Assembly: GCF_000166295.1 (NCBI RefSeq)
Contig: NC_017506.1
Coordinates: forward strand, 3,844,001 to 3,908,000
Reading direction: 5' to 3'
From: Marinobacter adhaerens HP15
GTDB lineage: Bacteria; Pseudomonadota; Gammaproteobacteria; Pseudomonadales; Oleiphilaceae
Length of the DNA stretch: 64,000 nt
Position 1 is the first letter of the stretch; every line of letters begins with the position of its first letter. A program made the position numbers and the translations under genes. Of the stretch, positions 1-14,700 are shown piece after piece. Under the pieces are notes generated by a model. It did not search any database, had not been told where the DNA came from, and saw only the letters and a program-made list of their open reading frames with translations.

Positions 1-816
1 CCGCTCCGGCTGAAGGGCCGCACCCAGGCGCTCCAGATCAAAGGCGGCCAGAGCTTCATCCAGCAATTCGTACCGGATTCCAGCCTCGACAAAGGCGCTC
101 AGTGCCTGTGGATAAATCTCAGCCAGTGGCAGACTGATAGGCAGGCCAAGGGCAGCGGCATTCTCCAGGCGAAGTTGCTCCAGGAGCAGGCGCGCAGTGA
201 CCGCGCTGTAGTCCGGCTCCCGCTCAATCCGGCTGCGGGCCGTCATGATCAAGGCCGACAGCACGTCTTCCTCGGCGATGCCGTCGTACAGGTTGGTCAG
301 GGCATCGTCCACCAGGGAATCACCGTCAATGCCCTCCAGCCCTGTGGCGGCCTGTTCCACCTGCAGTTTCATCAGGCCCAGATCCAGCGGAGCAATCTCG
401 CCACTGGTCTTTTTCACCGTCAGATGGGGGTGCGCCTCAACCGGCGCATGGCGGGCGCGCTCGCGGGCATGCTCTTCCCGATACAGGACGTAGGCGCGGG
501 CCACCTTCTGTTCTTCGGCCCGCATCAGGGCCAGTTCCACCTGATCCTGGATGTCTTCGATATGCACCTTGCCACCGGCCTTCAGGCGACGGCCAATCGC
601 CTGGATAACCTGGTCGGTCACCCGGTGTACCGCGTCATTGATACGCGCGGAACCGGCGGCGGTGTCGCCCTCAACTGCGAGGAAGGCTTTGGTTACGGCG
701 ATGCTGATCTTCGAGGGGTCGAAGCCCACAAGCGTGCCGTTGCGCTTGATGACCTGAAGGGATTCGGTGTCCGTGTGCGAGGTTGGCCGGGGTTCGGCCA
801 GGGCTGAGGCAGACAT
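1..816 (-). CDS. nrdA: Ribonucleoside-diphosphate reductase class Ia, alpha subunit (5' part; runs off the window)
   Basis: The minus strand is open from an ATG at 816 to the window edge (272 codons). The translation begins MSASALAEPRPTSHTDTESL and continues with ATP-cone sequence (LQVIKRNGTLVGFDPSKISIA, about residues 21-110). A second cone-like unit follows (HLTVKKTSGEIAPLDLGLMK onward). Tandem N-terminal ATP cones are typical of the long Pseudomonas-type NrdA of about 960 residues. The protein reduces ribonucleotides to deoxyribonucleotides with an NrdB partner in the cytoplasm; catalytic residues lie outside the window. The start is supported by AGGAG upstream of the ATG. A cobalamin riboswitch and NrdR-like boxes precede the gene, which suggests repression when B12, or dNTPs, are abundant. 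The family call is firm; the class is inferred from the cones and the B12 control. Confidence 0.9.
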   Translation of the reverse strand, partial: MSASALAEPRPTSHTDTESLQVIKRNGTLVGFDPSKISIAVTKAFLAVEGDTAAGSARINDAVHRVTDQVIQAIGRRLKAGGKVHIEDIQDQVELALMRAEEQKVARAYVLYREEHARERARHAPVEAHPHLTVKKTSGEIAPLDLGLMKLQVEQAATGLEGIDGDSLVDDALTNLYDGIAEEDVLSALIMTARSRIEREPDYSAVTARLLLEQLRLENAAALGLPISLPLAEIYPQALSAFVEAGIRYELLDEALAAFDLERLGAALQPER

Positions 817-937
817 GCAGTGTTCTCCTGAATACGCGTTGAGTTCCTTTCACCATCGCGTACGCAGGGGCACACCTCGCCATGGGAATGGCTGGGCATA
901 ACCGGTCTGCTCACCCTGGGTCGCGAAGGTGCAGTTG

Positions 938-953
938 GGAGCCGTAAGGCTCC
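938..953 (-). promoter_or_regulatory. Hairpin between riboswitch and nrdA (candidate expression platform)
   Basis: A perfect 6-bp stem (GGAGCC / GGCTCC) with a four-base loop lies just 3' of the cobalamin aptamer on the minus strand. No U-tract follows, so if it controls nrdA it is more likely to act on translation or folding than as a classical intrinsic terminator. It lies about 120 nt from the nrdA start codon, so the real sequestering element may be elsewhere in the leader. Confidence 0.35.
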
Positions 954-954
954 T

Positions 955-1130
955 TCATCCCTGGCAGGTCTTCGGACTCAGGGGCGTGAATCGATAGATT
1001 CGGCCTCGTGTGGCGACTTCCCGGCTTTCGCCAGTGTCTTGATGCCACGCTTGTTCCCCAATACCGCTGCGCGTCAGTTCCGGAGTCTCACCGGATTCCC
1101 GATACCAGAATGGCTGAGATGATCACACGT
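955..1130 (-). promoter_or_regulatory. Cobalamin (B12) riboswitch upstream of nrdA
   Basis: On the minus strand the conserved pieces of the B12 aptamer occur in order. These are GGGAATCCGGTGAGACTCCG followed by GAACTGACGCGCA, then the CACTGGCGAAAGCCGGGAAG segment, then the B12-box AGTCCGAAGACCTGCC. This matches the classical cobalamin riboswitch family. The 3' end (about 958) lies about 140 nt upstream of the nrdA ATG in the same orientation. B12 riboswitches ahead of B12-independent enzymes normally shut the gene when cobalamin is available, so a B12-dependent class II reductase would be expected elsewhere in the genome. The 5' boundary is approximate. Confidence 0.92.
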
Positions 1131-1153
1131 TGACCGAGTTGGTTACGCACTGA

Positions 1154-1201
1154 TCACTACATCTGGTATTTGACCAAGGATAGAAACACTATATACACGA
1201 T
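1154..1201. promoter_or_regulatory. Pair of NrdR-box-like sites in the nrdA promoter
   Basis: Two sequences resemble the NrdR consensus acaCwAtATaTwGtgt. Box A at 1154-1169 (TCACTACATCTGGTAT) matches 11 of 16 positions including the core C, A, AT, T and G. Box B at 1186-1201 (ACACTATATACACGAT) matches 12 of 16. They are offset by exactly 32 bp, about three helical turns, which is the usual arrangement for paired NrdR boxes. They lie upstream of the riboswitch, where the nrdA promoter must be. Match counts were made by eye. Confidence 0.6.
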
Positions 1202-1224
1202 ATTCGGAAGGGACAACCTGAAGC

Positions 1225-1252
1225 AATAAAAAAGGCCCCGGAGAGGGGGCCA
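1225..1252 (-). terminator. Rho-independent terminator after fmdB
   Basis: On the minus strand, GGCCCC...GGGGCC forms a strong GC stem with a short loop and is followed directly by TTTTTTATT. It sits 28 bases past the fmdB stop codon and separates the amidase operon from the nrdA leader that follows in the same direction. Confidence 0.9.
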
Positions 1253-1279
1253 AACACGTGACAGTTTCAACTCAGCCAA

Positions 1280-1633
1280 TCAGTGGCTGATCATCCAGGG
1301 CCGCATGGAGGGAAACATCTTCTTCCCGTCAGCGGTGTAGAACAGCATGGACTTTCCGGGTTTCGGGGAGCCGCAGCCGCAGGCGCGACTGTGCTCCTTA
1401 TCATTCGCCCTTCGGTCTGCGGTGGAAAACACCGGCTCATGCCGGGACCGCTCGTTCCGGTCCTCGGCCGCCCTTTTGGCCGGGTCCATGGCGGCAATGT
1501 GGGATGGCAACACGATCACCCGCGGCGACATTGCCTTACAGGTAGGGCATTGCGCCGGCTTGGCCGCATCCTCCATGGTGGCCAGTGTGTGAAAGAGGCC
1601 ATGTTCACGGCACTTGTAGTCATACACGGGCAT
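1280..1633 (-). CDS. fmdB: FmdB-family zinc-ribbon protein of the amidase operon
   Basis: This 117-residue protein starts MPVYDYKCREHG and carries a small zinc ribbon: C8 with a following H, then CPTC at about residues 29-32. This is the FmdB (CxxC_CxxC_SSSS) family, named from the formamidase cluster of Methylophilus. The C-terminal half adds further cysteines (CGCGSPKPGK). Its biochemical role is not well established; regulatory or metal-delivery roles have been suggested. It begins 5 nt after the fmdA stop behind AAGGAG, so it is the last gene of the operon and is followed by a clear terminator. The family call is good; function is inferred from position. Confidence 0.8.
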   Translation of the reverse strand: MPVYDYKCREHGLFHTLATMEDAAKPAQCPTCKAMSPRVIVLPSHIAAMDPAKRAAEDRNERSRHEPVFSTADRRANDKEHSRACGCGSPKPGKSMLFYTADGKKMFPSMRPWMISH

Positions 1634-1638
1634 GGCGA

Positions 1639-2871
1639 TTACTCCTTATCTTTCGACAGCGGTACGTCCATGCCCCCGCTGACTTTCTTCTGCGGACCAT
1701 CGGCGGACGGGTTAATGTCGAAGTCGAAGATGCCCGTCGGCAACCAGAGCGTGGCGCAGGCGTTCGGGATATCCACCACGCCGCTGATGTGGCCTTCCAC
1801 CGGCGCACAACCCAGAATCGCGTAGGCCTGAGCCTTGGTGTAGCCGAACTTGGTCATGTATTCGATGGCGTTCAGACACGCCTGACGATAGGCCACGTGC
1901 ACGTCCAGGTAATGCTGGCCGCCGTCTTCGTCTACGGAGATGCCTTCAAAGATCACATAGTCGTCGTAACGGGGCTTGATCGGGCTGGGCTTGAACACCG
2001 GATTCTTGATGCCGTACTTCTTCACGCCGTCCTTGATCAGGTTTACCCGCAGGTGAATCCAGCCGGCCATTTCGATGGCGCCACAGAACGTGATTTCACC
2101 GTCGCCCTGGCTGAAGTGAAGGTCGCCTACGGAGAGGCCGGCCCCGTCCACGTACACCGGGAAATACACCTTGGAGCCACGGGACAGATCCTTGATGTCA
2201 CAGTTGCCACCGTGTTCCCGTGGCGGCACGGTACGGGCGGCTTCGGCGCCAGCAGCTTTGGCCGCGTCACCGGTCATCTGGCCCATATGGGCGGTCTCAC
2301 CATTGGGCAGTGTTGCCAGTTCCGGCACACGCTCCGGATCGGTCGCAACCAGTCCGGCCTCACGCTTGTTCCAGGTGTCCAGCAATTCTTTGGAGGGCAG
2401 GCAGCCGATCAGCCCCGGGTGAATCAGGCCGGCAAATTCCACGTTGGGAATGTGGCGGGATTTGGTGAACATGCCGTTGAAGTCCCAGATGGATTTCTGG
2501 GCCTCCGGGAAGTGTTCGGTCAGGAAGCCACCGCCGTTCTGCTTGGAAAAGAACCCGTTAAAGCCCCACTGGCTTTCTTCGAAGGTGCCGATGTCGAGGA
2601 TGTCGACTTCCAGCAGGTCGCCCGGCTCAGCGCCCTCGACCCCGATCGGTCCCGACAGGAAGTGAACCTGGCTGAGATCAACATCGCGCACGTCGTCGGC
2701 GCTGTCGTCGTTCTTGATCTGGCCGCCGGTCCAGTCATAGCACTCGACGATGAAATCGTCGCCCGGCTTGACGGTGGCCACCAGCGGAATATCCGGGTGC
2801 CAGCGGTTGTGGATTTTGTCGTTCTCATAGGCCGACTTGTTCAGATCGATCTTGATAATGGTTTCAGCCAT
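1639..2871 (-). CDS. fmdA: Formamidase (acetamidase/formamidase family)
   Basis: The 410-residue protein aligns by recognition with FmdA-type formamidases, which hydrolyse formamide (and less well other short amides) to ammonia and the acid in the cytoplasm. Visible family features are GLIHPGLIGCLPS, REHGGNCDIKDL, the histidine/glutamine-rich stretch GDLHFSQGDGEI and the segment AYAILGCAPVEGHISGVVDIPN. The length is the family's usual one. The start is supported by AAGGAG before the ATG. It lies 101 nt downstream of amiB, and its upstream region carries a 41-bp block shared with the urtA promoter, so it may have its own regulated promoter within the urt-ami array. The array thus encodes two unrelated amidases, this one and AmiE. 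Confidence 0.93.
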   Translation of the reverse strand: MAETIIKIDLNKSAYENDKIHNRWHPDIPLVATVKPGDDFIVECYDWTGGQIKNDDSADDVRDVDLSQVHFLSGPIGVEGAEPGDLLEVDILDIGTFEESQWGFNGFFSKQNGGGFLTEHFPEAQKSIWDFNGMFTKSRHIPNVEFAGLIHPGLIGCLPSKELLDTWNKREAGLVATDPERVPELATLPNGETAHMGQMTGDAAKAAGAEAARTVPPREHGGNCDIKDLSRGSKVYFPVYVDGAGLSVGDLHFSQGDGEITFCGAIEMAGWIHLRVNLIKDGVKKYGIKNPVFKPSPIKPRYDDYVIFEGISVDEDGGQHYLDVHVAYRQACLNAIEYMTKFGYTKAQAYAILGCAPVEGHISGVVDIPNACATLWLPTGIFDFDINPSADGPQKKVSGGMDVPLSKDKE

Positions 2872-2945
2872 AGCGGGCGCTCCTTGGTGTTGGCTTGCAC
2901 GATTAGGTAACGGCTTTACTATCCGAAATCCCGTCCCTGTGAGGT

Positions 2946-2986
2946 ATTCGCGAAATGCCCCCGGTGCCTACGTCATTCGACGTATT
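2946..2986 (-). promoter_or_regulatory. Candidate amide/urea regulon operator upstream of fmdA
   Basis: This 41-bp block is 30/41 identical, with no gaps, to 10156-10196 upstream of urtA. It has two parts with the same spacing in both copies: an inverted repeat ACGTC-N4-GACGT (2970-2986 region) and ATTCGCGAAATGCCCC (2946-2961). It straddles the 3' end of amiB and lies about 75-115 bp upstream of the fmdA ATG. The neighbouring LuxR-type response regulator is the obvious candidate binder; this is inference. Confidence 0.55.
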
Positions 2987-4016
2987 GGTGCACCGTGACC
3001 GTCCTGCCCTGCAGGCCGGCTTCAAACCGGCGGCAGTCCGGATACGCCAGCAACGCCCGGGCAACGGCGGGTTCCAGCCGCTGGCGAAAAGCCCGCAGCA
3101 GTTCCCGGGCGCCATAGCGAGCGTCGTAGCCACGGCACAGCTCTTCTCGCAGCTCAGGCGCCAGCGACAGCTCGGCGTGCTTTTTGGACAACCGGCGATT
3201 GAGGCCCGCCAGCTCAATGTCCAGCAGGGCTTCCAGCCAGTTGTCGGTAAGTCGGTTGAAGGTGAGGATCTGATCAATCCGGTTGAGGAACTCCGGATCG
3301 AAATACCGGCGCAGAGCGGTGTCGCGAATGGCCTCGCCGTTGCCGGCTGATAAACCGAGCCAGCGGCGCCAGCCCCGCTTGTAGCTCTGCTCATGCGTCT
3401 CCGCCTCCAGCGCACCGGCGTTGCTGGTCATGAAGATCAGGGTGTTGCGGAAGTCGATCTCCCGGTTACCGGAGGGAAACACCAGCCGACCGGTGTCCAG
3501 CACGTTCAGCAGCGTGCGCACCACTTCCTTGCTGGCTTTCTCGATTTCATCAAACAACACAATTCCGGGTTTGCTGAACGAGCCCTGTACCTTGTCCAGA
3601 TCGAACAGGCTGTGGCCCTCCTTGCTGCCCACGTAGCCCGGCGGTGCACCGGTCAGGGCTGCGGCGTAATGCTCCTGGGCCAGGGTGTTCATGTCGATAC
3701 GGCACAGCCCATCGCGATTGCCGTGGATGGCTTCGGCAATGAGGCGCACGGTTTCGGTTTTGCCCACGCCGGTAGGACCCAGGAACAGGTGCACCGCCAG
3801 CGGCCGGTTGTCCTCGCCGATATCGGCTTTCACCCGCACCAGCATGGATTCCATGGCGGCCAGGGCCTCATCCTGGCCGACGATATTTTCCCGCAGTCTG
3901 GCCATCACGGCCTCGGGCTCGAAGCGGAACCGGGAAGCACGAACCGGGCCTGAGGCGGCCCGGTTCTTTTCAATGGTTTCCCGATTGGCTTCCAGCCGTT
4001 CGTTGATAAACGGCAT
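2973..4016 (-). CDS. amiB: AAA+ ATPase, AmiB-like partner of aliphatic amidase
   Basis: A 347-residue ClpA/ClpB-type AAA+ protein with a single AAA module. It shows Walker A GPTGVGKT (80-87), an aromatic pore loop GAPPGYVG (123-130), Walker B VLFDEIEK (153-160), a sensor segment IFMTSNAG and a C-terminal D2-small domain (YDARYGARELLRAF). It lacks the N domain and first AAA module of full-length ClpB. In Pseudomonas aeruginosa, amiB directly follows amiE and encodes a ClpA-like ATPase; here it also follows amiE, 15 nt after its stop and behind GGGAGG. A chaperone role in AmiE assembly or activity is the inferred function. No amiC, amiR or amiS is present nearby. Confidence 0.85.
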   Translation of the reverse strand: MPFINERLEANRETIEKNRAASGPVRASRFRFEPEAVMARLRENIVGQDEALAAMESMLVRVKADIGEDNRPLAVHLFLGPTGVGKTETVRLIAEAIHGNRDGLCRIDMNTLAQEHYAAALTGAPPGYVGSKEGHSLFDLDKVQGSFSKPGIVLFDEIEKASKEVVRTLLNVLDTGRLVFPSGNREIDFRNTLIFMTSNAGALEAETHEQSYKRGWRRWLGLSAGNGEAIRDTALRRYFDPEFLNRIDQILTFNRLTDNWLEALLDIELAGLNRRLSKKHAELSLAPELREELCRGYDARYGARELLRAFRQRLEPAVARALLAYPDCRRFEAGLQGRTVTVHQYVE

Positions 4017-4031
4017 GAACGCCTCCCGGGC

Positions 4032-5078
4032 TTAGGCCCCTGCGGATTTTTCCTTGCCGTCGAACGGCAGCTCGCCCACCGGGCACTCGGCGGTACCTAC
4101 CGTCTTCCGGGTCATGGCCTCCACATTTTCCTGCGCCTTCTGGGCATCCATCACCCAGGTACGGTAGAACTCGAACGGACAGTCGGCCACGCCCTTGTCG
4201 CCGTCCCCGGAGGCATGCACTCCGGTGTAGCCCCGGTGCAGCAGCTTGAACAGGTGATTCTGGGACTGGTCGTTCGCACGGGCATCACGGATCTGGCTTA
4301 CGGACAGCTGGGCATACTGAATGCCCATGTCTTCCTCACCGCATTCCCCGAGGGTACGGCCATCGAAGCCGATGATCGCGGAGTGGCCGAAGTAGGAATA
4401 CACGCCGTCAAATCCGGCGGCGTTGGCCACCGCAACGTAACAGTTGTTGGCCCAGGCCATGCTCTTGGCCATCATCACCTGCTGTTCCTTGGCCGGGTAC
4501 ATGTAGCCCTGACAGCGAACAATCAACTCCGCCCCCTTCATGGCGCAATCACGCCAGATCTCGGGATAGTTGCCGTCGTCGCAGATGATCAGGCTGATCT
4601 TCATGCCCTTTGGACCCTCGGTGACGTAGGTAGTGTCACCCGGATACCATCCCTCGATCGGACACCAGGGGATACACTTGCGGTATTTCTGGACGACCTC
4701 ACCCTCGTTGTTGATCAGAACCAGGGTGTTGTATGGCGCCTTGTTGGGGTGATCCTCGTGTCGTTCTCCGGTCAGCGAAAACACGCCCCAGGTGTTCGCC
4801 TCACGACAGGCGGCGGAGAAGATGGCCGTTTCGTCACCGGGCACGGTGGCCGCGGTTTCCATCATTTCCTCGTTGTCGTACATGATGCCCATGGTGCTGT
4901 ATTCCGGGAACACCACCAGGTCCATGCCCGGCAGGCCGACTTTCATACCCTTGATCATGTCAGCGATGTTGCGGGCGTTGTCCAACACCTCGGCTTTGGT
5001 ATGCAGCCGCGGCATCTTGTAGTTCACCACCGCCACGCCGACGGTATCGTTGCTGCTGGAAATATCACCGTGTCTCAT
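4032..5078 (-). CDS. amiE: Aliphatic amidase (nitrilase superfamily)
   Basis: The 348-residue protein begins [20 protein letters not shown] like P. aeruginosa AmiE. The catalytic triad of the nitrilase superfamily is at the expected positions: Glu59 (FPEY), Lys134 (YRKCIPW) and Cys166 ([10 protein letters not shown]). AmiE hydrolyses short aliphatic amides such as acetamide and propionamide to the acid and ammonia as a cytoplasmic homohexamer. The start is backed by GAGGAG. The gene follows urtE by 14 nt and precedes amiB by 15 nt, so import of an amide or urea-like substrate and its hydrolysis are encoded together. The classical AmiC/AmiR antitermination pair is absent; control probably passes through the kinase/regulator pair at 10.4-14.6 kb (inference). 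Confidence 0.97.
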
Positions 5079-5092
5079 CGTTCTGCTCCTCG

Positions 5093-5782
5093 TTAAACCG
5101 CCAGATAGCTCGCAATCTTGTCCTGATCCGCTTCTTCGCGGCTCTCTTCGTGCACAATCGCGCCCTTTTCAATCACCAGGATCCGGTCTGCCGCATCCAT
5201 CACGAAGCTCAGAACCTGCTCCGACACCACAATCGACAGGCCCCGCTCATCCCGGATGCGCCGAAGGGTCTGCGCAATTTCCTTGATAATGTTGGGCTGG
5301 ATACCTTCCGTGGGTTCGTCAAGCAGCAGCACCTTGGGCCGGGTGGCCAGTGCCCGGGCAATAGCCAGCTGTTGTTGCTGACCGCCGGAAAGGTTGCCAC
5401 CACGCCGGTTCTGCATTTCCTTCAGTACCGGGAACATCTCGTAGAGGTCCTCGGGTACCTTCTTCTCACCAACAGCGGCCAGGCCGGTCTCGATATTCTC
5501 CCGTACCGTCAGTGTCGGAAAGATCATCCGCCCCTGCGGCACGAAACCGATTCCGGCGCGCACTCGCTGGAAGCTCTTCAGGCCGGAAAGGTCGTTCCCA
5601 TCCAGGCTGACCTCACCGCCTCGCGTGGGGGTCATGCCCACCAGGGATTTCATCAGCGTGGTCTTGCCCATGCCGTTTCGCCCCACCACGGCGACAATTT
5701 CGTTCTTTGCCACGTCGAGGTTGAGGTCATCGATGATGGTGCTTTGGCCGTAGGCCACCGAATGATGTTTGATGCTCAGCAT
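5093..5782 (-). CDS. urtE: Urea/short-amide ABC transporter ATP-binding protein UrtE
   Basis: A 229-residue ABC ATPase of the LivF/UrtE type with Walker A GRNGMGKT (34-41), signature LSGGQ (131-135) and Walker B VLLLDEP (151-157). With UrtD it powers import of substrate delivered by UrtA through the UrtBC permease in the inner membrane. It lies 2 nt from urtD and 14 nt ahead of amiE. Urt systems carry urea in cyanobacteria and many proteobacteria. Linkage to two amidases and no urease in this window suggests that short amides may be the real or additional substrates here. Confidence 0.93.
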
Positions 5783-5784
5783 GA

Positions 5785-6543
5785 TCAGTGCCCCAGGTAG
5801 ACTTCGATGACTTTCGGGTCCGATTTCACGTGCTCGATGGACCCTTCGGAAAGAACTTTGCCCTGATGCATGACCGTGACCCGGTCAGCGATATCACCGA
5901 CAAACTGCATGTCGTGCTCGATCACCAGCACCGTATGGTCCCGGGTAATCACCCTCAGCAGCTCGGCGGTTTTCTTGCGCTCGGTGACGGACATCCCGGC
6001 CACCGGCTCATCCAGCATCAGTAGGTCCGGTTTCTGGATCAGCAGCATGCCGATCTCCAGCCACTGCTTCTGGCCATGGCTCAACGAGGCAGCCGGCTCA
6101 TTCAGGGCCTCGGTCAGGAAGATGGTTTCAGCCACTTCCTCCACAGCACTGATCACCTCCGCGTCGCGCTTGAATCCCAGGGCGCCCATCACGCTGTGTC
6201 CCTTCGGGTAGGACACTTCAAGGTTTTCAAAGACGGTCAGGTCCTCGAACACAGACGGGGTCTGGAACTTCCGGCCCACACCCGAGTGAACAATCTGGTG
6301 CTCCTTGAGCTTGGTCAGCTCCTTACCGTCAAACTTGATGGAGCCGGACGTGGCCTTGGTCTTGCCGCAGATCAGGTCCAGAACCGTGGTTTTACCGGCA
6401 CCGTTGGGGCCGATGATGACCCGAATTTCCTTGGGATCCAGGTAGAAGGACAGGTCATCCACGGCCTTGAAGCCATCGAATGACACGGTCAGGCCTTCGA
6501 CCGCCAGCAGGAAATCCCCACTTTTGCTTTTGGCTGCACTCAT
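5785..6543 (-). CDS. urtD: Urea/short-amide ABC transporter ATP-binding protein UrtD
   Basis: This LivG/UrtD-type ABC ATPase (252 residues from the ATG) has Walker A GPNGAGKT (45-52), a signature written LSHGQKQWLEIG in place of LSGGQ, and Walker B LLMLDEPVAGM. LSHGQKQW is normal for UrtD. The ATG at 6543 overlaps the urtC stop by one base (TGATG). An in-frame GTG immediately upstream is an alternative start, with GGAG spaced acceptably for either. Tight coupling to urtC and urtE supports membership in one transporter complex. Confidence 0.92.
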   Translation of the reverse strand: MSAAKSKSGDFLLAVEGLTVSFDGFKAVDDLSFYLDPKEIRVIIGPNGAGKTTVLDLICGKTKATSGSIKFDGKELTKLKEHQIVHSGVGRKFQTPSVFEDLTVFENLEVSYPKGHSVMGALGFKRDAEVISAVEEVAETIFLTEALNEPAASLSHGQKQWLEIGMLLIQKPDLLMLDEPVAGMSVTERKKTAELLRVITRDHTVLVIEHDMQFVGDIADRVTVMHQGKVLSEGSIEHVKSDPKVIEVYLGH

Positions 6544-7751
6544 CACGATTTCTCCGGGCTGTAGGAATCGATCATCGGATCGTAATCAGGAGTCTTCTCA
6601 GCGGTCGGCTTCGGCTCTGCGGCTTTTTCCGCGGGCTTGGCCTCCAGCTGTGCACCCTTGTTGCGCTTGAAGATCTTGTCTTCCAGGGGCATGACGTAGG
6701 TCTGATACAGGCCGGCCAGACCGTTCGGGAAGGCCAGTACGACACCGATAAACAACGCACCCATGGCAAACGGCCAGAGTTCCGGGAAGGATTCCGAGAA
6801 GCCACTCTTGGCGGCATTCACCAGCAAGGCACCGTAGACCGCGCCGAGGATGGACAACCGGCCACCCAAGGCACAGAAGATGACCATCTCGATGGAAGCG
6901 ACGATGCCGATGAACGACGGCGACATGAAGCCGACAATCAGGGTGAACATGGCACCACCGACGCCGGCAAAAGCCGCCGCCAGGCAGAACACGAAGATCT
7001 TGAAGGCGGCAACGTCATAGCCGGAAAAACGCACTCGGTTTTCCTGGGCGTTCATGGCTACCAGGATGCGGCCCAGCTTCCGGTTCTGGACAAGGCGCGC
7101 CACAAACAGGCAGAGGAACAGCATGCCAACACAGACAAAGTACAGGATGGTCCGGGCTTCATCGGTGCGGATGTCCCAGCCGTTCAGCGTCTGCAGATCG
7201 GTAATGCCGTTCACACCGCCGGTATAGCCCTGCTGTCCGATAATCAGGATCGTCAGGATTGCGGCGATGGCCTGGGTGATGATGGCGAAGTACACGCCCC
7301 CCACCCGCCGGGTGAACATGGCGAAGCCGATAACGAACGCCAGCAGAACCGGCACACCGATCACCGCCAGCAGGGTGAAGGAGAAGCTGTGGAACGGTTC
7401 CCAGAACCAGGGCAGCTCGGTGAGCTGGTTCCAGTCCATGAAATCCGGGATGCCGGGGGTGGACTGGATGGCGGTGGCCTCCGGAGTGGAAGCCTCCAGC
7501 TTCAGGAACATGGCCATGCAGTAGCCGCCAAGACCAAAGAACACACCCTGGCCCAGGCTGAGAATGCCGGCCTTGCCCCAGCACATCACCAGGCCAATGG
7601 CGACAAAGGCGTATGTCAGGTACTTGCCCACCATGTTCAGGCGGAATGGGTCCAGCGCCAGTGGCAAAAGCACCACCAACAACACGGCCAGTGCGACGTA
7701 ATACAGTCCCTCGCGGGTGGCAAACCATTTCAATGGGGATGAACTCTTCAT
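6543..7751 (-). CDS. urtC: Urea/short-amide ABC transporter permease UrtC
   Basis: A 402-residue LivM-type inner-membrane permease with many hydrophobic segments, the typical AFVAIGLVMCWGKAGILSLG region early and GVGGAMFTLIVGFMSPSFIG in the second half. The last roughly 50 residues are a charged, Lys/Glu/Pro-rich tail (AQLEAKPAEKAAEPKPTAEK) that is probably cytoplasmic. It forms the transmembrane pore with UrtB. The start is supported by AGGAG; it follows urtB by 9 nt and overlaps urtD by one base. Confidence 0.93.
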   Translation of the reverse strand: MKSSSPLKWFATREGLYYVALAVLLVVLLPLALDPFRLNMVGKYLTYAFVAIGLVMCWGKAGILSLGQGVFFGLGGYCMAMFLKLEASTPEATAIQSTPGIPDFMDWNQLTELPWFWEPFHSFSFTLLAVIGVPVLLAFVIGFAMFTRRVGGVYFAIITQAIAAILTILIIGQQGYTGGVNGITDLQTLNGWDIRTDEARTILYFVCVGMLFLCLFVARLVQNRKLGRILVAMNAQENRVRFSGYDVAAFKIFVFCLAAAFAGVGGAMFTLIVGFMSPSFIGIVASIEMVIFCALGGRLSILGAVYGALLVNAAKSGFSESFPELWPFAMGALFIGVVLAFPNGLAGLYQTYVMPLEDKIFKRNKGAQLEAKPAEKAAEPKPTAEKTPDYDPMIDSYSPEKS

Positions 7752-7760
7752 GACAATCTC

Positions 7761-8687
7761 CTAGCGACGGACCTTGAGGGCCATGAGTCCTTCTGGACGC
7801 AGCATCAGGATGCCGACGACAACCAGCAGGGTGAGCACCTTGGCCATGGAACCACTGAGGAAGAACTCCATGGTGGACTGGGCCTGGGATATACCGAAGG
7901 CGGACACAATGGTGCCGATCAGGCTCTGGGCACCGCCAAACACCACCACCAGGAAGGTGTCTACGATATAAGCCTGGCCAGAGGACGGACCGGTGGAACC
8001 GATCATGGTGAAGGCAGCACCCGCGACGCCGGCGATGCCACACCCGAGGGCAAAGGTGGCTCGGTCGATACCGGCACTGTTGATACCAACGGCTTCAGCC
8101 ATGGGGCGATTCTGAACCACCGCCCGCACTTTCTTGCCATAGCCGGATCGGTACATCAGGAAATACACGCCCACGGCAATGGACAGCGCGATGATCATCA
8201 CGAACAGGCCGTTGATGGGCAGCTCCACCAGGTCAGTCACCTGGATCGCCCCCATCATCCACTCGGGCAGGTCCACGCCCACTTCCCGGGCGCCAAAGAT
8301 GGATCGGTAAGCCTGCTGCATGATCAGGCTCAGACCCCAGGTGGCCAGAAGGGTATCCAGTGGTCGGTGATAGAGTCGCCGTATCATGAGCCATTCGACG
8401 AATGCCCCCAGGGCAGCACAAATCAGGAAAGCCAGAACCATGGCGACGAAGAAATAGCCGCCGAACAGGCTCGGCAGATAGGACTGGAAAAAGCCGGATG
8501 TCAGGTAGGTGGTGTAGGCGCCGAGGATCATGAACTCCCCGTGGGCCATATTGATCACCCCCATCTGACCAAAGATGATGGCCAGGCCCAACGCCATCAG
8601 TACGAATACTGAAAACAGGGAGAGCCCGGCAAACCCCTGCATGGCAAATATCGACATCAATTCACTGCTGGTGTAGCCATCAAACAT
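7761..8687 (-). CDS. urtB: Urea/short-amide ABC transporter permease UrtB
   Basis: A 308-residue LivH-type permease, hydrophobic throughout, with the family segment GLAIIFGQMGVINMAHGEF near the N-terminus and ALGCGIAGVAGAAF later. It pairs with UrtC to form the import channel. The start codon has GGGAG nearby. It is separated from urtA by 99 nt that contain a strong hairpin, consistent with higher expression of the binding protein than of the membrane components. Confidence 0.93.
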   Translation of the reverse strand: MFDGYTSSELMSIFAMQGFAGLSLFSVFVLMALGLAIIFGQMGVINMAHGEFMILGAYTTYLTSGFFQSYLPSLFGGYFFVAMVLAFLICAALGAFVEWLMIRRLYHRPLDTLLATWGLSLIMQQAYRSIFGAREVGVDLPEWMMGAIQVTDLVELPINGLFVMIIALSIAVGVYFLMYRSGYGKKVRAVVQNRPMAEAVGINSAGIDRATFALGCGIAGVAGAAFTMIGSTGPSSGQAYIVDTFLVVVFGGAQSLIGTIVSAFGISQAQSTMEFFLSGSMAKVLTLLVVVGILMLRPEGLMALKVRR

Positions 8688-8755
8688 GACCCTTACTCCC
8701 CTTTAGACCAACTTACCCTTCAAACCCTTAATCTCGTTTTGCAGAGGCAACGGAT

Positions 8756-8777
8756 GCTGGCGCCCGGGGGCGCCAGC
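8756..8777 (-). other. Strong intercistronic hairpin between urtA and urtB
   Basis: A perfect 9-bp GC-rich stem (GCTGGCGCC / GGCGCCAGC) with a four-base loop lies 9 nt past the urtA stop. No U-tract follows on the minus strand, so it is probably an mRNA-stabilising or partial-attenuation element that keeps the binding-protein message more abundant than the permease part. This layout is common after binding-protein genes in ABC operons. Confidence 0.65.
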
Positions 8778-8786
8778 AGTCCGGGC

Positions 8787-10058
8787 TTATTGGTAGCCTT
8801 CCGGGAACGGGTCCGGTTCCATCAGTTCTTCGGTCTCGTAGACAACCTTGTACTGGCCGTCAGGTTGAGCCTGGCCGATGCGGGTCTTGGACCACAGGTG
8901 ATGGTTTTCGTGGATGCGCACGTAACCCTCTGGCGCTTTCGTGAACTCGATGCCTGCGAACTCTTCACGGATCTTGTCGATGTCGAATGAGCCGGCTTTT
9001 TCAACCGCCGCTTTCCACAGCCATGGGCCGAGATAAGCCGCCTGGGTCACGTCACCGATGACCATGTCATCGCCGTAGGCTTCCTTGAAGGCCGCAACAA
9101 ATTCCTTGTTGTTGGGGTTATCGAGGCTCTGGAAATACTTCATGGAGGCGTAGATGCCGTCCACGTTCTCACCGCCGATACCGCGGATCTCGTCCTCGGT
9201 CACGGAGATGGTCAGCAGAAGGGGCTTCTCATCGGTGAAATCGATACCGGCCGCTTTCATCTGCTTGTAGAAGGCCACGTTGGAGCCACCGACAACCGAG
9301 GCAAAGATGACGTCTGGCTTACGCAGCTTGATCTTGTTGATCACCGAGTTGAACTGGGTGTGACCCAGCGGATAGTACTCCTCGCCAGAGACCTTGAGGC
9401 CCAGCTTGTCCTCGATGTGCTTGCGGGCGATCTTGTTCGAAGTACGGGGCCAGATGTAGTCCGATCCGAGCAGATAGAAGCTTTTGGCACCCTTGGTTTC
9501 TGCGGCCCAGTCGATACTGGCAAGGATCTGCTGGGTCGCTTCCTGGCCGGTGTAGACCACGTTGGGCGACTGCTCAAGACCCTCGTAGAAGGTGGGATAA
9601 TAGAGCATGCCGTTGTATTGCTCGATAACCGGGAGAACGGCCTTGCGGGAAGCCGAGGTCCAGGCGCCGAAGATCGCAGCAACGTTGTCCTGGCGCAGTA
9701 GCTTCCGGGATTTTTCAGCGAAGGTCGGCCAGTCACTGGCGCCGTCTTCCTGAACGAATTCAATCTGGCGGCCCAGGACACCACCGGAGGCGTTGATCTG
9801 GTCAATAGCCAGCTTTTCCGCCTGAACCGAGCCAATCTCACTGATCGCCATTGTGCCGGTGATGGAGTGCAGAATGCCGACCGTAACAGTGTCATCCGTC
9901 ACCGCCAGACCAGTCGTGTTGACCTCTGCTGTGGCCGGCACTGCCGCCTGTGCCGACGTCGCAAGCATGACGGAAGCCGCCAGCGTCATCAGGCTCTTTT
10001 TCAGCCCCAGTCCCTTACCGAACGACCGCCCGTTGGCGGCTTGATCTGTCGTATCCAT
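8787..10058 (-). CDS. urtA: Urea/short-amide ABC transporter substrate-binding protein UrtA
   Basis: A periplasmic binding protein of the Leu/Ile/Val type (423 residues). The ATG at 10058 was chosen because GAGGAATCACC precedes it and the protein then starts with a twin-basic leader (GLGLKKSLMTLAASVMLATS, cleavage after AQA). Upstream in-frame codons lack such support. Family features are VGILHSITGTMAISE, LDQ-like INASGGVLGRQIEFV, GAWTSASRKAVLPV and LFYPTFYEG-like MLYYPTFYEG, all typical of UrtA rather than LivJ. It captures urea or short amides and delivers them to UrtBC. The first gene of the urt-ami array, it is divergent from the kinase gene, with the shared 41-bp block in the gap. Confidence 0.93.
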   Translation of the reverse strand: MDTTDQAANGRSFGKGLGLKKSLMTLAASVMLATSAQAAVPATAEVNTTGLAVTDDTVTVGILHSITGTMAISEIGSVQAEKLAIDQINASGGVLGRQIEFVQEDGASDWPTFAEKSRKLLRQDNVAAIFGAWTSASRKAVLPVIEQYNGMLYYPTFYEGLEQSPNVVYTGQEATQQILASIDWAAETKGAKSFYLLGSDYIWPRTSNKIARKHIEDKLGLKVSGEEYYPLGHTQFNSVINKIKLRKPDVIFASVVGGSNVAFYKQMKAAGIDFTDEKPLLLTISVTEDEIRGIGGENVDGIYASMKYFQSLDNPNNKEFVAAFKEAYGDDMVIGDVTQAAYLGPWLWKAAVEKAGSFDIDKIREEFAGIEFTKAPEGYVRIHENHHLWSKTRIGQAQPDGQYKVVYETEELMEPDPFPEGYQ

Positions 10059-10136
10059 GGTGATTCCTCGCAGTTTTTGAAGTCCGGATCCGCGCTTCCC
10101 TTCGAAAGCACAGTGCCCACGAGAATCATTCTGCTC

Positions 10137-10154
10137 GGCACCCGTACAGGTGCC
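10137..10154. other. Inverted repeat in the urtA leader/promoter
   Basis: GGCACC-CGTACA-GGTGCC is a perfect 6-bp inverted repeat between urtA and the shared 41-bp block. It could be an operator half-site pair or a 5'-leader hairpin. No copy was seen near fmdA. Confidence 0.35.
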
Positions 10155-10155
10155 C

Positions 10156-10196
10156 ATTCGGCAATCGCCCCAGCGCGCTACGTCATTTGACGCATT
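10156..10196 (-). promoter_or_regulatory. Candidate amide/urea regulon operator upstream of urtA
   Basis: This is the second copy of the 41-bp block found upstream of fmdA. It contains the inverted repeat TACGTC-N4-GACGCA (10179-10194) and, at identical spacing, ATTCGGCAATCGCCCC (10156-10171). It lies about 100-140 bp upstream of the urtA start, inside the 297-bp divergent gap, so a bound regulator could also affect the kinase gene. Confidence 0.55.
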
Positions 10197-10263
10197 CCTG
10201 TAACCAACAGGACAGGCTAAAAACGCAGGCATGCAGAAGAAGAACATCCCTGCACCGGTCTAT

Positions 10264-10280
10264 GGCACGGATATTGTTCC
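10264..10280 (+). promoter_or_regulatory. Weak sigma54-like promoter candidate ahead of the kinase gene
   Basis: ATGGCACGGATATTGTT carries the GG of a -24 element and, at the correct 10-base spacing, GT in place of the usual GC of the -12 element. It lies about 80 bp upstream of the kinase ATG on the plus strand. Nitrogen genes often use sigma54, but the missing GC keeps this uncertain. Confidence 0.25.
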
Positions 10281-10355
10281 GGCTTTCTCATCCGGTGCAT
10301 TTCAGCTTGAAGCTGCACTAACGCGGGGCACTCAAACACCAAAGGCAAGGCAGTC

Positions 10356-13300
10356 ATGGCGGCAAGACAGAATATTTTTCGGGTTCGGCGCAGCTACAAC
10401 CAGTGGGTAGCCAACCAGACCCTGGAAGACTATGCGCTTCGCTTTACCGCCAAGAGTGCCCGGCGCTGGTCCGCGGCTCGGGTAAGCAACACAGCCCTGG
10501 GCGCCATCTCCTTTCTGGCGCTGGAAGCCATCGGCGGCTCCATTACCCTCCACTACGGATTCGACAATGCGGTCGCCGCGATACTGGCCGTCAGTCTGGT
10601 GATCTTCCTCACCGCCATCCCGATCAGTTACTACGCGGCCCGTTATGGCGTCGACATTGACCTGCTGACTCGCGGTGCCGGCTTTGGCTATATAGGCTCC
10701 ACCATCACCTCGCTGATCTACGCCTCGTTCACGTTTATCTTTTTCGCCATCGAGGCCGCCATCATGGCCATGGCGCTGGAAATGCTGTTCGGGGTTCCCC
10801 TGGTTCTCGGCTACCTGATCTGTGCCGTGGTCATCATTCCACTGGTCATACATGGCATCACCACGATCAGCCGATTCCAGGTCTGGACCCAGCCAGCCTT
10901 CATCTTTCTCCAACTGGTGCCCTTTGTTTTCATTGTTTACGCGGATGCCTCTTCCGTCAGCGACTGGACACAGTTCGAGGGGCTTAACCCGGTTGATTCG
11001 GGTGGCTTCAGCATCGTTATGTTCGGGGCTGCGGCGGCTGTCGTGTTCTCATTGATTGCCCAGATCGGCGAGCAGGTGGATTTCCTGCGCTTCATTCCAG
11101 AACCCCGCAATGCCCGGGAAAAGCGACGTTGGTGGGCCGCCGCTATGGCAGGCGGACCTGGCTGGATTGTGATCGGCATGTTGAAAATCCTGGCGGGCTC
11201 CTTTCTTGCGGTTCTTGCCCTGAAACAGGGCGTTACCGCCTCGGAGGCGGCTGATCCAACCCAGATGTATCTGATCGCCTTCAATTACATTACCCATTCG
11301 CCCGAGATCTCCCTGGCGATGGCGGGCATTTTCGTCATTCTTTGCCAGCTCAAGATCAACGTTACCAATGCCTATGCCGGCTCCATCGCCTGGTCCAACT
11401 TCTTCTCGCGACTCACCCACAGCCACCCCGGGCGAGTTGTCTGGCTGTTTTTCAACGTCGCCATTGCCCTTCTGGTGATGGAACTGGGTGTTTACCGGGC
11501 GCTGGAGGAAACCCTGGGTTTCTACGGCATCGTCGCCATTGCCTGGGTTGGTTCGCTGGTGGCGGATCTGGTGATCAACAAACCACTGGGGCTCAGTCCC
11601 GCACACATTGAGTTCAAACGTGCCCACCTGTACGACATCAACCCGGTCGGGGTTGGTGCCATGCTGACGGCCTCTGTAGTAGGCATCATCTGCCACACCG
11701 GCATACTGGGCGTCTATCCGGAGGCTCTATCCCATTTTATCGCCATGGGAGTCGCGCTGATCATGGCGCCTCTGATCGCCTGGAAAACCGGTGGCCGTTT
11801 CTACACAGCACGGCCATTCGTCCCCATCGCTACTGACCATCAGCTCGTGCAATGCACGATTTGTGAACATCACTTCGAGCCGGAAGATCTCACCCATTGT
11901 CCCGCGTATGACGGCACCATCTGTTCACTGTGCTGTTCGCTCGATGCCCGTTGCGCAGACGCCTGCAAACCGGGGGCCGGATATCAGGAACAGCTCAATC
12001 AGTTTCTCGGGAGCCTGATGCCAAAACCGGTGTTGGCCGGTCTGCGCTCAAGGCTCGGGCATTTTCTGAGCCTGCTGGTGCTCATCAACGGCCTTTCCGG
12101 CCTGCTGCTGTCCCTGATCTATTTCAAGACGCCGGTCGCTTCACCTGCGGAAGGCCTTCTTTTATCGGTAACCCTGTGGAAGGTGTTCTTCATTCTGGTG
12201 ATCGTGACCGGTGTGATCTGCTGGCTGTTCGTGCTCGCCCATGAAAGCCGGGTAGTCGCCGAGGAAGAGTCCCGACGCCAGAACCGCCTCCTGATGGAAG
12301 AGATCGTCGCCCACGAACGGACCGACCAGGCTCTTCAGCAGGCAAAGGAACAGGCGGAGGCCGCCAACGGGGCGAAAAGTCGCTACTTGACGGGGATCAG
12401 TCACGAACTCCGTTCCCCACTCAATGCCATCCTCGGTTATGCCCAGTTGATGGAAAACGACGAGACCATCCCTTCCCACCGCAAGGAAGCCCTCGGCGTG
12501 ATACGCCGAAGCGGTGAGTACCTCGCCGATCTGATCGAGGGGCTGCTGGATATTTCCAAAATTGAAGCCGGCCGGCTGGACCTGCACCGCGATCAGGTCA
12601 GGATTGGGCTGCTGATGGAGCAACTGGTGACCATGTTCCGCCTGCAGGCAGAAGATAAAGGCCTGGCCTTCGATTACCACTGCCCCAACCCGCTTCCGGA
12701 AATGGTCACCACCGACGAGAAGCGGCTGCGCCAGATTCTGATCAACCTTCTCTCCAACGCCATTAAATACACGGATCGGGGAGGCGTCTCCCTGACCCTG
12801 CGTTATCGCAGTCAGGTCGCCGAGTTCACCGTACGCGATACCGGGGAAGGCATAGCCCCTGAGAATGTGGAACGCATCTTCCGACCCTTCGAACGTATCC
12901 GGACACCGGGGCAAAGCCGGGCCGGCACAGGTCTGGGTCTGACCATTACCCGCCTGCTCACGGAAATCATGGGTGGCGATATCTCGCTGGAAAGCGTACC
13001 GGGCCAGGGTAGTGTCTTCCGGGTCAGTCTGATGCTATCAAGCCTGCATTCTTCGACACCCCGCTCGATATCAATGCCGGCCAAGCGCATCTACGGTTAC
13101 CACGGTTCGCGGCGAAAGGTACTGCTGGTGGATGACGATGTGTCCCATCGCCAGGTCATGCGGGCCATGCTCTCGCCACTGGGCTTTGAAATCGTCGATC
13201 TTGGCAATGCTCTGCAGGTTTTGGCAACCGTTGAGGCGGAACGCCCTGACCTTGTGCTTCTCGACGTGTCCATGCCGGGCCAAAGCGGCTGGGAAGTCCT

Positions 13301-13739
13301 GGCAATGCTACGACAGCACAAGCACACCATGCCTGTCGTGATGGTCTCTGCCGACGCTAACGAGGGCCACCACGCCGCAGACTCACCGCGTCTGCACGAT
13401 GGCTACATCATCAAACCGGTTCGGCTGAACCTGTTGCTCGACACCATTGCCAGCGTGCTGGATCTCAATTGGCGATTCGATAAGAGCCCGGATCCCATGG
13501 CGGCTATTCCAGCACCCGACCATGGCGTTTTGCCTTTACCCAAAATGGAGCATCGCCTGGCTCTGGCCACTCTGGCCCGGATCGGACACCGGAAAGGCCT
13601 GCTTGAGGCATTGCATGACCTGAAACACAGCGGCGAGGCGGCCGAACCCTTTGCGATTGAGCTCACCAGACTCACCAATGATTTCCAGTTTGAGAAAATT
13701 CTTGAACTACTCGAGGTAGCCGAACATGAAGCTTCATAA
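10356..13739 (+). CDS. Hybrid sensor histidine kinase with NCS1-type transporter input domain
   Basis: A 1127-residue fusion. Residues 1-490 form a polytopic NCS1 (cytosine/purine/allantoin permease) domain (SYNQWVANQTLEDYALRF, LLTRGAGFGYIGS, YAGSIAWSNFFSRL). Residues 500-537 form a segment with eight cysteines (C500, 503, 515, 523, 526, 527, 533, 537). Two more membrane segments (about 568-590 and 602-626) and a coiled region follow. The kinase has the phospho-accepting His683 (ISHELRSPLN), N797/N801, D828 (DTGEGI) and GTGLGL. A receiver domain has Asp970. The architecture parallels CbrA-type transporter kinases, but with an NCS1 domain. The gene is divergent from urtA and overlaps the response regulator by 14 nt, so the likely ligand is urea, an amide or a related nitrogen compound; this is inference. 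Confidence 0.88.
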   Translation: MAARQNIFRVRRSYNQWVANQTLEDYALRFTAKSARRWSAARVSNTALGAISFLALEAIGGSITLHYGFDNAVAAILAVSLVIFLTAIPISYYAARYGVDIDLLTRGAGFGYIGSTITSLIYASFTFIFFAIEAAIMAMALEMLFGVPLVLGYLICAVVIIPLVIHGITTISRFQVWTQPAFIFLQLVPFVFIVYADASSVSDWTQFEGLNPVDSGGFSIVMFGAAAAVVFSLIAQIGEQVDFLRFIPEPRNAREKRRWWAAAMAGGPGWIVIGMLKILAGSFLAVLALKQGVTASEAADPTQMYLIAFNYITHSPEISLAMAGIFVILCQLKINVTNAYAGSIAWSNFFSRLTHSHPGRVVWLFFNVAIALLVMELGVYRALEETLGFYGIVAIAWVGSLVADLVINKPLGLSPAHIEFKRAHLYDINPVGVGAMLTASVVGIICHTGILGVYPEALSHFIAMGVALIMAPLIAWKTGGRFYTARPFVPIATDHQLVQCTICEHHFEPEDLTHCPAYDGTICSLCCSLDARCADACKPGAGYQEQLNQFLGSLMPKPVLAGLRSRLGHFLSLLVLINGLSGLLLSLIYFKTPVASPAEGLLLSVTLWKVFFILVIVTGVICWLFVLAHESRVVAEEESRRQNRLLMEEIVAHERTDQALQQAKEQAEAANGAKSRYLTGISHELRSPLNAILGYAQLMENDETIPSHRKEALGVIRRSGEYLADLIEGLLDISKIEAGRLDLHRDQVRIGLLMEQLVTMFRLQAEDKGLAFDYHCPNPLPEMVTTDEKRLRQILINLLSNAIKYTDRGGVSLTLRYRSQVAEFTVRDTGEGIAPENVERIFRPFERIRTPGQSRAGTGLGLTITRLLTEIMGGDISLESVPGQGSVFRVSLMLSSLHSSTPRSISMPAKRIYGYHGSRRKVLLVDDDVSHRQVMRAMLSPLGFEIVDLGNALQVLATVEAERPDLVLLDVSMPGQSGWEVLAMLRQHKHTMPVVMVSADANEGHHAADSPRLHDGYIIKPVRLNLLLDTIASVLDLNWRFDKSPDPMAAIPAPDHGVLPLPKMEHRLALATLARIGHRKGLLEALHDLKHSGEAAEPFAIELTRLTNDFQFEKILELLEVAEHEAS

Positions 13740-14631
13740 TGACCGGAAGACTGTCGTGATGGTCGTAGATGACGCAGTCGACTCCATTCGAATGATCAAC
13801 GATGCCATGGAAGAGGCAGGTATGACGGTGCTCGTTGCTCTGGAAGGAAACCAGGCGCTTACGATCAGCCAGAATATCACCCCGGATGTGGTGTTGATGG
13901 ACGCTTTGATGCCCCATATGGACGGCTTTGAAACCTGTCGTCGATTGAAAGAGAACCCTGCGTTCGCCGATATTCCTATCATCTTCATGACCGGTCTAAG
14001 CGATACCGAGCACGTTGTTATGGGGCTCAACGCCGGTGGTGTGGATTACGTGACCAAACCGATTAACACCACCGAACTCCTGGCCAGAATGGATGTACAC
14101 CTGACGAACGCCCGCATGACCCGCAGTGCTCGTAGCGCCCTGGATACGGCCGGTCAGAACCTGTTTGCGGTGGATCACGAGGCAAACTTGCTCTGGGGCA
14201 CGCCACAGGTTTGCCAGTACCTGCCCGACGCAGCACACCCCGAATTCCCCGAGGTACGCGCCAGACTGGAGGAATGGCTGGGCCACCGTCCCGAGCCGGG
14301 CCACAGCATGCCAGTCGAAATCATGGGCATCGACAGAACGGTAGAGTTTCTTGCCCTTGTGGATAACCGGGAATACCTGCTGCGGCTGAAAACACCACAG
14401 AACCAGAACAGCGCAACAGCAGCCCTGCGGCAACGGTTCGAGCTGACACTGAGAGAATCCGACGTGTTACTCTGGATCGCGAACGGCAAGACCAACCGGG
14501 AGATAGGCCAGATCCTGGATATGAGTCCCCGAACCGTTAACAAACACCTGGAGCAGGTATTCCGGAAACTGGGCGTAGAAAACCGGACGGCGGCCGCAGC
14601 CAGTGCAATCCGCTTGCTGGCAATCCAGTAA
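13726..14631 (+). CDS. LuxR/NarL-type response regulator paired with the NCS1 kinase
   Basis: A 301-residue regulator. The receiver domain (residues 8-125) has acidic VDD at 14-16, phospho-acceptor Asp59 (VLMDALMP) and the conserved lysine in VTKPIN. A middle linker of about 100 residues (130-230) has no recognised domain. The C-terminal LuxR-type helix-turn-helix (235-301) includes LTLRESDVLLWIANGKTNRE and SPRTVNKHLEQVFRKLGVEN. Translation is coupled: the ATG lies inside the last codons of the kinase, behind GAGG. It is the natural candidate to bind the inverted repeat upstream of urtA and fmdA (inference). Confidence 0.9.
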   Translation: MKLHNDRKTVVMVVDDAVDSIRMINDAMEEAGMTVLVALEGNQALTISQNITPDVVLMDALMPHMDGFETCRRLKENPAFADIPIIFMTGLSDTEHVVMGLNAGGVDYVTKPINTTELLARMDVHLTNARMTRSARSALDTAGQNLFAVDHEANLLWGTPQVCQYLPDAAHPEFPEVRARLEEWLGHRPEPGHSMPVEIMGIDRTVEFLALVDNREYLLRLKTPQNQNSATAALRQRFELTLRESDVLLWIANGKTNREIGQILDMSPRTVNKHLEQVFRKLGVENRTAAAASAIRLLAIQ

Positions 14632-14700
14632 TGGCCTCGGGCACTTTTGCTCATAGCGTCTGTCCATCGGGGTACTGTGAACCTGAAAGCGAGAAGCGCG

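Follow-up and report, generated by a model that had tools for sequence, protein, structure and literature searches.

What is the DNA block that two promoters of an amide/urea gene set have in common, and which protein would bind it? The question is raised by a stretch of 64 000 nucleotides from Marinobacter adhaerens HP15 (contig NC_017506.1, positions 3,844,001 to 3,908,000; hereafter the window, with positions counted from its first letter). The regions upstream of the formamidase gene fmdA and of urtA, which codes for a urea/short-chain amide binding protein, carry similar 41-bp blocks there. The initial annotation proposed that the block is the operator of an amide/urea regulon, and this reading largely holds in view of the conservation of the block, its co-occurrence with the adjacent regulator gene, its position, its copies at other amide/urea genes and the covariation of site and regulator. 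The block is a real, conserved operator. On the basis of these comparisons, each copy is very probably a tandem operator of the LuxR-type response regulator encoded at 13726–14631, which would activate the genes for amide and urea import and breakdown.

The repeated block and its palindromic core

Ungapped recomparison of positions 2946–2986 and 10156–10196 gave 30 identical positions out of 41, the value first counted by eye. Over window positions 1–15000, compared on the same strand, this is the top pair of 41-mers (runner-up 28). When the two upstream regions were compared alone, the best match was again 30, and 60 mononucleotide shuffles reached no more than 25. The core of the block is a 16-mer inverted repeat of two 7-base half-sites separated by a 2-base gap (7-2-7), with the consensus TACGTCA-NN-TGACGTA. 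The inverted repeat ACGTC-N4-GACGy noted earlier is real and forms the inner part of this full site. The two strong copies, called O1, are as follows.

2969–2984, minus strand: O1 of fmdA, strong and distal; TACGTCATTCGACGTA on the plus strand, TACGTCG-AA-TGACGTA in gene sense
10179–10194, minus strand: O1 of the urtABCDE-amiE-AAA gene set; TACGTCATTTGACGCA, in gene sense TGCGTCA-AA-TGACGTA

Each copy is upstream of its gene; from centre to start codon the distance is about 105 bp for fmdA (ATG at 2871) and about 128 bp for urtA (ATG at 10058). Both copies have the NarL/FixJ-type architecture of two inverted 7-bp half-sites 2 bp apart. They do not carry the heptamer of NarL itself, the consensus of which is TACYYMT; they fit it at 10 and 9 of 14 positions and have G as the fourth base.

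The 4.65-Mb genome contains the 16-mer core at exactly two places with up to one mismatch, so no further site at that threshold points to a wider regulon in this strain. Three more places have two mismatches: one (L005) is within an open reading frame (ORF) of that locus at 1331–1915, read as lptC, another (L003) is within overlapping ORFs of 212 and 249 amino acids (aa), and the third (L004) may still be a site, the only ORFs around it being short and overlapping (93 and 107 aa). The composite block has three matches genome-wide at up to three mismatches, the third of them within an ORF and without the left half-site. No site with up to two mismatches occurs within 10 kb of the urease gene (C1:3011146), where the nearest listed place has three mismatches and is 9.6 kb away.

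The fmdA copy shares 12 nucleotides with the 3' end of an AAA-ATPase gene, the stop codon of which is at 2973–2975. The final codons of this gene (HQYVE stop, 2973–2990, minus strand) are spelled by operator DNA, and the C-terminus of the protein in near relatives may therefore be fixed by the overlapping DNA site.

Conservation of the operator

The window also encodes a hybrid sensor kinase, next to the regulator. In 151 genomes of the family, the site was found at up to one mismatch in 63, and a control with the reversed pattern produced 22 strand matches, spread over 19 genomes. The kinase N-terminal domain (E ≤ 1e-60) is present in 55 of these genomes, all 55 of which have the site. The regulator (E ≤ 1e-40) is present in 57, and the site occurs in 56 of them versus 7 of the 94 genomes without the regulator. 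There are 116 distinct site places in the family, 98 of them within 15 kb of the kinase; at least two sites are present within this distance in 45 of the 55 kinase-bearing genomes. Among the family genomes, urtA is found in 55 and fmdA in 56. In a 398-genome sample of the phylum, 38 genomes have this urtA (E ≤ 1e-120), and every one of them also has the kinase. Over residues 1–600, the kinase shows 100% identity to that of Marinobacter flavimaris (L011).

The kinase, urt and fmdA genes mostly travel together, so few genomes separate a target gene from the regulator. Two genomes (G021 and G027) have urtA and fmdA, and in them neither the regulator nor the site was found. Another (G134) has a relic of the regulator (residues 41–300) and no site. 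Genome G096 has lost the sensor domain and urtA and retains the fmdA site together with regulator residues 68–301. An apparent deletion in this genome (L209, 6743–8401) joins the C-terminal part of the kinase in frame to the regulator from residue 68 onward, leaving an open frame of 561 aa. Located beside an operator-bearing fmdA, this fusion is possibly a natural one-piece variant of the two-component system.

The wider loci comprised the best 80 of 550 relatives in named genomes and 50 of the 57 kinase matches of the phylum sample; two of the seven matches left out as regions are the genome studied here and G028. The regulator was found in 79 of the 80 and 48 of the 50 fetched loci. Locus L055, where the contig ends before the regulator, and loci L198 and L199, with no regulator found, were excluded before counting. 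Three loci belong to both sets (L170 = L047, L172 = L065 and L175 = L089) and are taken once in counts of distinct loci. Where urtA adjoins the kinase gene, the gap between the two contains a TACG-type 7-2-7 palindrome in 72 of 75 loci of the first set and in 31 of 37 of the second (means of 0.27 and 0.2 in shuffled gaps, maximum 2), which makes 100 of the 109 distinct loci of this kind. Where urtA does not adjoin the kinase gene, the palindrome was found in 1 of 4 and 3 of 11 loci.

The presence of the fmdA copy in 103 distinct loci tracks the gene layout. It is found in all 34 loci with the AAA gene directly upstream of fmdA and in two of the three with amiE upstream. With urtE at 101–450 bp the copy is present in 9 of 11 loci, with urtE further away in 2 of 8, and with urtE within 100 bp in none of 47. 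The site thus occurs in layouts in which fmdA would plausibly depend on a promoter of its own. Eighteen site places are remote from the kinase; the neighbourhood was examined for 16 of them (the other two are in G116 and G037), and seven precede amide/urea genes. These seven lie before fmdA at 27 kb from the urtA site (L203), fmdA in G096 (L209), amiE-AAA (L215), urtA-like transporters (L200 and L212) and an amidase-like gene preceded by two sites (L201).

These data bear on whether the block could be a chance resemblance, or be conserved because of the coding sequence of the AAA gene (amiB in the initial annotation). The overlap of the fmdA copy with the last codons of this gene would fit the latter, and 30 of 41 positions matched by eye is a modestly rare event in a 64-kb window, given a runner-up of 28 in 15 kb. 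However, fmdA is preceded by the same site also in loci that lack the AAA gene or in which this gene stops well short of the site (L029, L038–L040). The site further precedes urtA, is found at fmdA or amiE genes remote from the kinase (L203, L215), and occurs in 63 genomes, compared with 19 for the reversed-pattern control. Coding constraint was rejected as the cause of conservation, in agreement with the earlier remark that it does not suffice, and we consider this whole explanation extremely improbable. The initial annotation had also made conservation in relatives a test of its proposal; a lack of conservation was looked for in the family genomes and the wider loci and was not encountered.

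The second half of the block

The part of the block next to the palindrome, earlier described as a second element ATTC..GCCCC, has counterparts in many promoters. These read, in gene sense, the palindrome, then GGGG(C/T)-N-ATT-N2-CGAAT, then a −10-like box 22 bp further on; CAGAAT, TAGATT, GATAGT and GATACT are found as −10-like boxes. In non-redundant promoters, every offset from the palindrome was scored for similarity to TACGTCA-NN-TGACGTA and compared with shuffles. The urtA promoters (n = 46) gave one peak, 6 bases past the palindrome, with 6.3 of 14 positions against 3.42 in shuffles (s.d. of the mean 0.24). The fmdA promoters (n = 30) gave a peak at the same offset, with 5.7 of 14 against 3.44 (s.d. 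of the mean 0.29). A comparable peak is missing on the upstream side of the palindrome.

Because the similarity peaks at one single offset, the second half is most likely a weak, degenerate second copy of the same operator (O2), 22 bp from O1 centre to centre. This supersedes an intermediate reading, which took the second half as a motif of its own lying 28 bp from the centre of the palindrome. The corresponding features of the window are listed below.

2947–2962, minus strand: O2 of fmdA, weak and proximal; GGGGGCATTTCGCGAA; agrees with the 7-2-7 consensus at 7 of 14 positions; 22 bp between its centre and that of O1
10157–10172, minus strand: O2 of urtA; TGGGGCGATTGCCGAA; 8 of 14 positions fit the 7-2-7 consensus
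2918–2923, minus strand: −10-like box GATAGT of the putative fmdA promoter, 22 bp past the block
10128–10133, minus strand: −10-like box CAGAAT of the putative urtA promoter

Counted from the putative −10 boxes, O1 would be centred at −65.5 and O2 at −43.5 in both promoters.

Alternatively, O1 alone might be the operator, and the second half a constraint of the core promoter (−35) or a site for another factor. The low scores of O2 in the window, its location where a −35 element would sit and the absence of an obvious second copy, by eye, in Bradyrhizobium-type promoters are compatible with this explanation. Yet the 7-2-7 similarity peaks at the same offset in both promoter sets, far above the shuffles, and recognizable second palindromes exist at the O2 place in L186–L189 (TACGTCATCCTGCGTA or TACGTCATGCTGCGTA) and in L159 (TGCGTGCTTTTGCGCA); the second copy is near-canonical in four loci, from three genera of one family. 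We regard O1 alone as unlikely, though worth serious attention, and retain the tandem arrangement. In the urtA–kinase gap of locus L061, a further operator-like stretch lies shortly upstream of TACGTCATTCGACGTA, with a spacing unlike that of the Marinobacter tandem.

The probable cognate regulator

The regulator matches the Pfam families Response_reg (91 bits, cut-off 30.2) and GerE (66.4 bits, cut-off 23.5), and its recognition helix is SPRTVNKHLEQ. Among 124 distinct loci, regulators with N at residue 272 of this helix are accompanied by TACGT half-sites in 68 of the 71 loci having a site. With D at this residue the half-site is TACGC in 26 of 28 such loci, and with T in four of four; the single locus with K has TACGC and the single locus with H has no site. 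Loci without a site otherwise comprise 15 of N type, three of D type and one of T type. It is suggestive that half-site and residue 272 appear to change together, in about two lineages. Solved structures matching the regulator domain include NarL (1je8). The equivalent of helix position 272 touches DNA in NarL; a literature search for a supporting paper found none.

A different regulator, either another LuxR/NarL-type protein or a nitrogen regulator, might own the operator while the adjacent one acts elsewhere. The genome has eleven other GerE-domain matches, and in G061, where this regulator was not found, a perfect TACGTCA-AT-TGACGTA precedes the gene for a MalT-like LuxR regulator (L204, 6224–6239). 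Against this, the TVNKH helix is present in the adjacent regulator only among the 12 matches, the presence of the site tracks that of the regulator (56 of 57 versus 7 of 94 genomes), and the D and T lineages show joint changes of operator and helix. A different owner thus seems improbable. The cognate regulator of O1 and O2 is most likely the adjacent response regulator, as co-occurrence, position, copies at other amide/urea genes and helix/operator covariation, all computed from the sequences, point to it.

Several observations weigh against the operator being the tandem site of this regulator. The kinase, regulator, urt and fmdA genes are mostly inherited as one block, which makes co-occurrence alone a weak argument, and many of the loci are close relatives, so the counts are not independent. 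The palindrome is recognizable upstream of the kinase gene in just 4 of the 15 distinct loci without adjacent urtA. Nine of the 18 remote sites have no amide/urea gene in the 3–12 kb examined, one of them being inside a long ORF (L202). Three N-type loci carry TACGC and two D-type loci carry TACGT operators. Residue 272 changes three times on the kinase tree and the independent-pairs test yields two pairs; with covariation resting on about two events, this test cannot reach significance. Finally, O2 is weak in the window itself and not obvious in the Bradyrhizobium-type promoters.

Gene neighbourhood

The kinase and regulator genes are divergent from the urtA–fmdA gene set.

1639–2871, minus strand: fmdA, formamidase (family match above cut-off)
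2973–4016, minus strand: AAA-ATPase of ClpA/B type
4032–5078, minus strand: amiE, aliphatic amidase (NCBIfam, above cut-off)
5093–8687, minus strand: urtE, urtD, urtC and urtB, ABC transporter genes, named from position and synteny
8787–10058, minus strand: urtA, urea/short-chain amide binding protein
10356–13739, plus strand: hybrid sensor kinase with a predicted NCS1-like (CodB/Mhp1) transporter domain, Cys-rich linker, HisKA, HATPase_c and receiver
13726–14631, plus strand: LuxR/NarL-type response regulator (receiver and GerE) with N272 in the recognition helix, proposed to bind O1 and O2

A cobalamin riboswitch aptamer was detected at 946–1124 on the minus strand (80.6 bits, gathering score 31.5). 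From reading the sequence, it is apparently upstream of a minus-strand gene that runs past the left end of the window.

The sensor kinase

No Pfam family matches kinase residues 1–670 at E ≤ 0.001, and searching the PDB with the sequence of the sensor domain gave no hit; matches were obtained by fold search alone. The AlphaFold2 model of the sensor domain, built from 36 sequences, has a mean pLDDT of 75 and a membrane part of 660 residues. Its best matches are CodB (TM-score to target 0.77–0.78) and then Mhp1 (0.68–0.71), above the SLC5-type structures. The membrane domain is therefore predicted to have the NCS1 (CodB/Mhp1) transporter fold, not SLC5, which sets the protein apart from the SLC5/STAC kinases (CbrA, CrbS and RpuS), defined by an SLC5 (SSF) membrane domain.

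A Cys-rich stretch (residues 500–538, window 11853–11969) links the membrane domain to the kinase, at the STAC position. Cysteines 500, 503, 515, 523, 526, 527, 533 and 537 are invariant in the 36 sequences. The stretch matches no Pfam family above cut-off in a library whose content of a STAC model was left unchecked. It is perhaps a metal-binding relay.

Sigma-54-like and other promoter signals

The sigma-54 consensus is TGGCACG-N4-TTGCW, with GG and GC elements. One such signature is present ahead of the kinase gene.

10263–10278, plus strand: sigma-54-type signature TGGCACGGATATTGTT; 11 of 12 positions; the GC element reads GT

The scan demanded the G of the GC element and not the C, and the window match has GT there. 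Scores of at least 10 of 12 were found in 73 of the 124 distinct loci in kinase sense, in 3 of 124 on the opposite strand and in 5 of 635 shuffles; for 63 non-redundant loci the numbers are 29 versus 3. This signature suggests that the kinase–regulator operon may be made mainly under nitrogen limitation.

Upstream of urtA, a score of at least 10 was seen in 1 of 109 loci (shuffled 2) and the best score in the window is 8; sigma-54 control of urtA itself was rejected. The regions upstream of fmdA show a sigma-54-like match of at least 10 of 12 in 12 of 106 loci (three duplicates counted) and none in shuffles. These matches may mark another kind of promoter used in some lineages, or else a signal embedded in the coding sequence upstream. 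Near the kinase, NtrC-like sites show a mild enrichment (score of at least 11 in 16 of 127 loci, three duplicates counted; shuffles 0). Those of the window overlap or follow the promoter, and we make no claim from them.

Comparison with known systems

Escherichia coli NarL binds 7-2-7 inverted-repeat sites; the tandem of the ogt promoter is at −44.5 and −77.5, and NarL also activates from −67.5 (PMC7419079). The present operators resemble this system in having inverted 7-2-7 sites in tandem and a NarL-family response regulator. They differ in spacing (22 bp, against 33 bp at ogt; PMC7419079) and in the genes concerned, which are those for amides and urea and not a nitrate-responsive set.

CrbS/CrbR consists of a transporter-fused hybrid kinase, with an SLC5 symporter domain and STAC, and a LuxR-type regulator, and serves acetate use. 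Its ACTU motif, an imperfect inverted repeat just upstream of the RpoD promoter, is common to several utilization genes in Gammaproteobacteria (PMC5715377). The transporter-like hybrid kinase, the LuxR-type regulator and the inverted repeat near the promoter of several target genes are shared with our system, which differs by its predicted NCS1-like domain and Cys-rich linker, its amide/urea targets and its tandem instead of one repeat (PMC5715377). In RpuS/RpuR of Sinorhizobium, an SLC5/STAC kinase responds to pyruvate and the LuxR-type regulator activates a transport operon through a conserved promoter motif (PMC9100948). The combination of transporter-fused kinase, LuxR-type regulator and conserved motif at a transport operon is similar; the imperfect direct repeat, the SLC5/STAC kinase and pyruvate are peculiar to RpuS/RpuR (PMC9100948).

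These precedents bear on whether the regulator represses, instead of activating, through the same sites. The predicted centres at −65.5 and −43.5 are upstream of the promoter and near the activating NarL positions (PMC7419079), and CrbR and RpuR, from the nearest transporter-kinase systems, are activators (PMC5715377, PMC9100948). Repression would thus be rather surprising.

A 2026 genome paper on Ectopseudomonas guguanensis G3 lists a second urtABCDE operon with a kinase and a LuxR regulator (PMC13296017). This is apparently the same neighbourhood, with urtABCDE, two-component genes and, by locus-tag number, an adjacent fmdA; the part of that account considered here gives no operator, regulon or sensing mechanism (PMC13296017). 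No description of this operator was found in the open-licence literature among the matches listed, judged largely on title and start of abstract.

A model of amide/urea control

From the sequence features described above, we infer binding, activation, promoter start, ligand and nitrogen gating as follows. One dimer of the NarL/LuxR-type regulator would bind the strong palindrome O1 and a second dimer the weak O2, which lies 22 bp downstream, both dimers sitting on about the same side of the helix. Both dimers would recruit RNA polymerase to a sigma-70-type promoter with its −10-like box 22 bp further on. The urtA tandem would drive urtABCDE-amiE and the AAA gene and the other tandem fmdA, so that amide/urea import and amide hydrolysis would rise together. 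Phosphate would be supplied by the divergently encoded hybrid kinase, the membrane domain of which probably senses an external short-chain amide or urea. In the whole putative chain, nitrogen limitation would lead to production of kinase and regulator, and the amide signal would then act through them on the urt and fmdA operators.

It is somewhat probable that these elements constitute an undescribed amide/urea sensing module found throughout Pseudomonadota, composed of an NCS1-fold kinase, a LuxR-type regulator and 7-2-7 operators in tandem at 22 bp, gated by sigma-54, the half-site having been retuned at least twice with the change of N to D or T.

The analysis provides a concrete candidate regulator–operator pair, and a simple reporter could serve to test the 22-bp tandem. 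The N, D and T variants that occur naturally at one helix residue, each with operators to match, lend themselves directly to work on the specificity of LuxR-type regulators. The kinase suggests the conversion of a nucleobase-type transporter fold into a receptor, comparable to that of SLC5 folds in CbrA and CrbS. The predicted regulon is short (urtABCDE-amiE-AAA, fmdA and the copies elsewhere in relatives) and would concern the uptake and breakdown of small organic nitrogen compounds in Marinobacter and many other Pseudomonadota.

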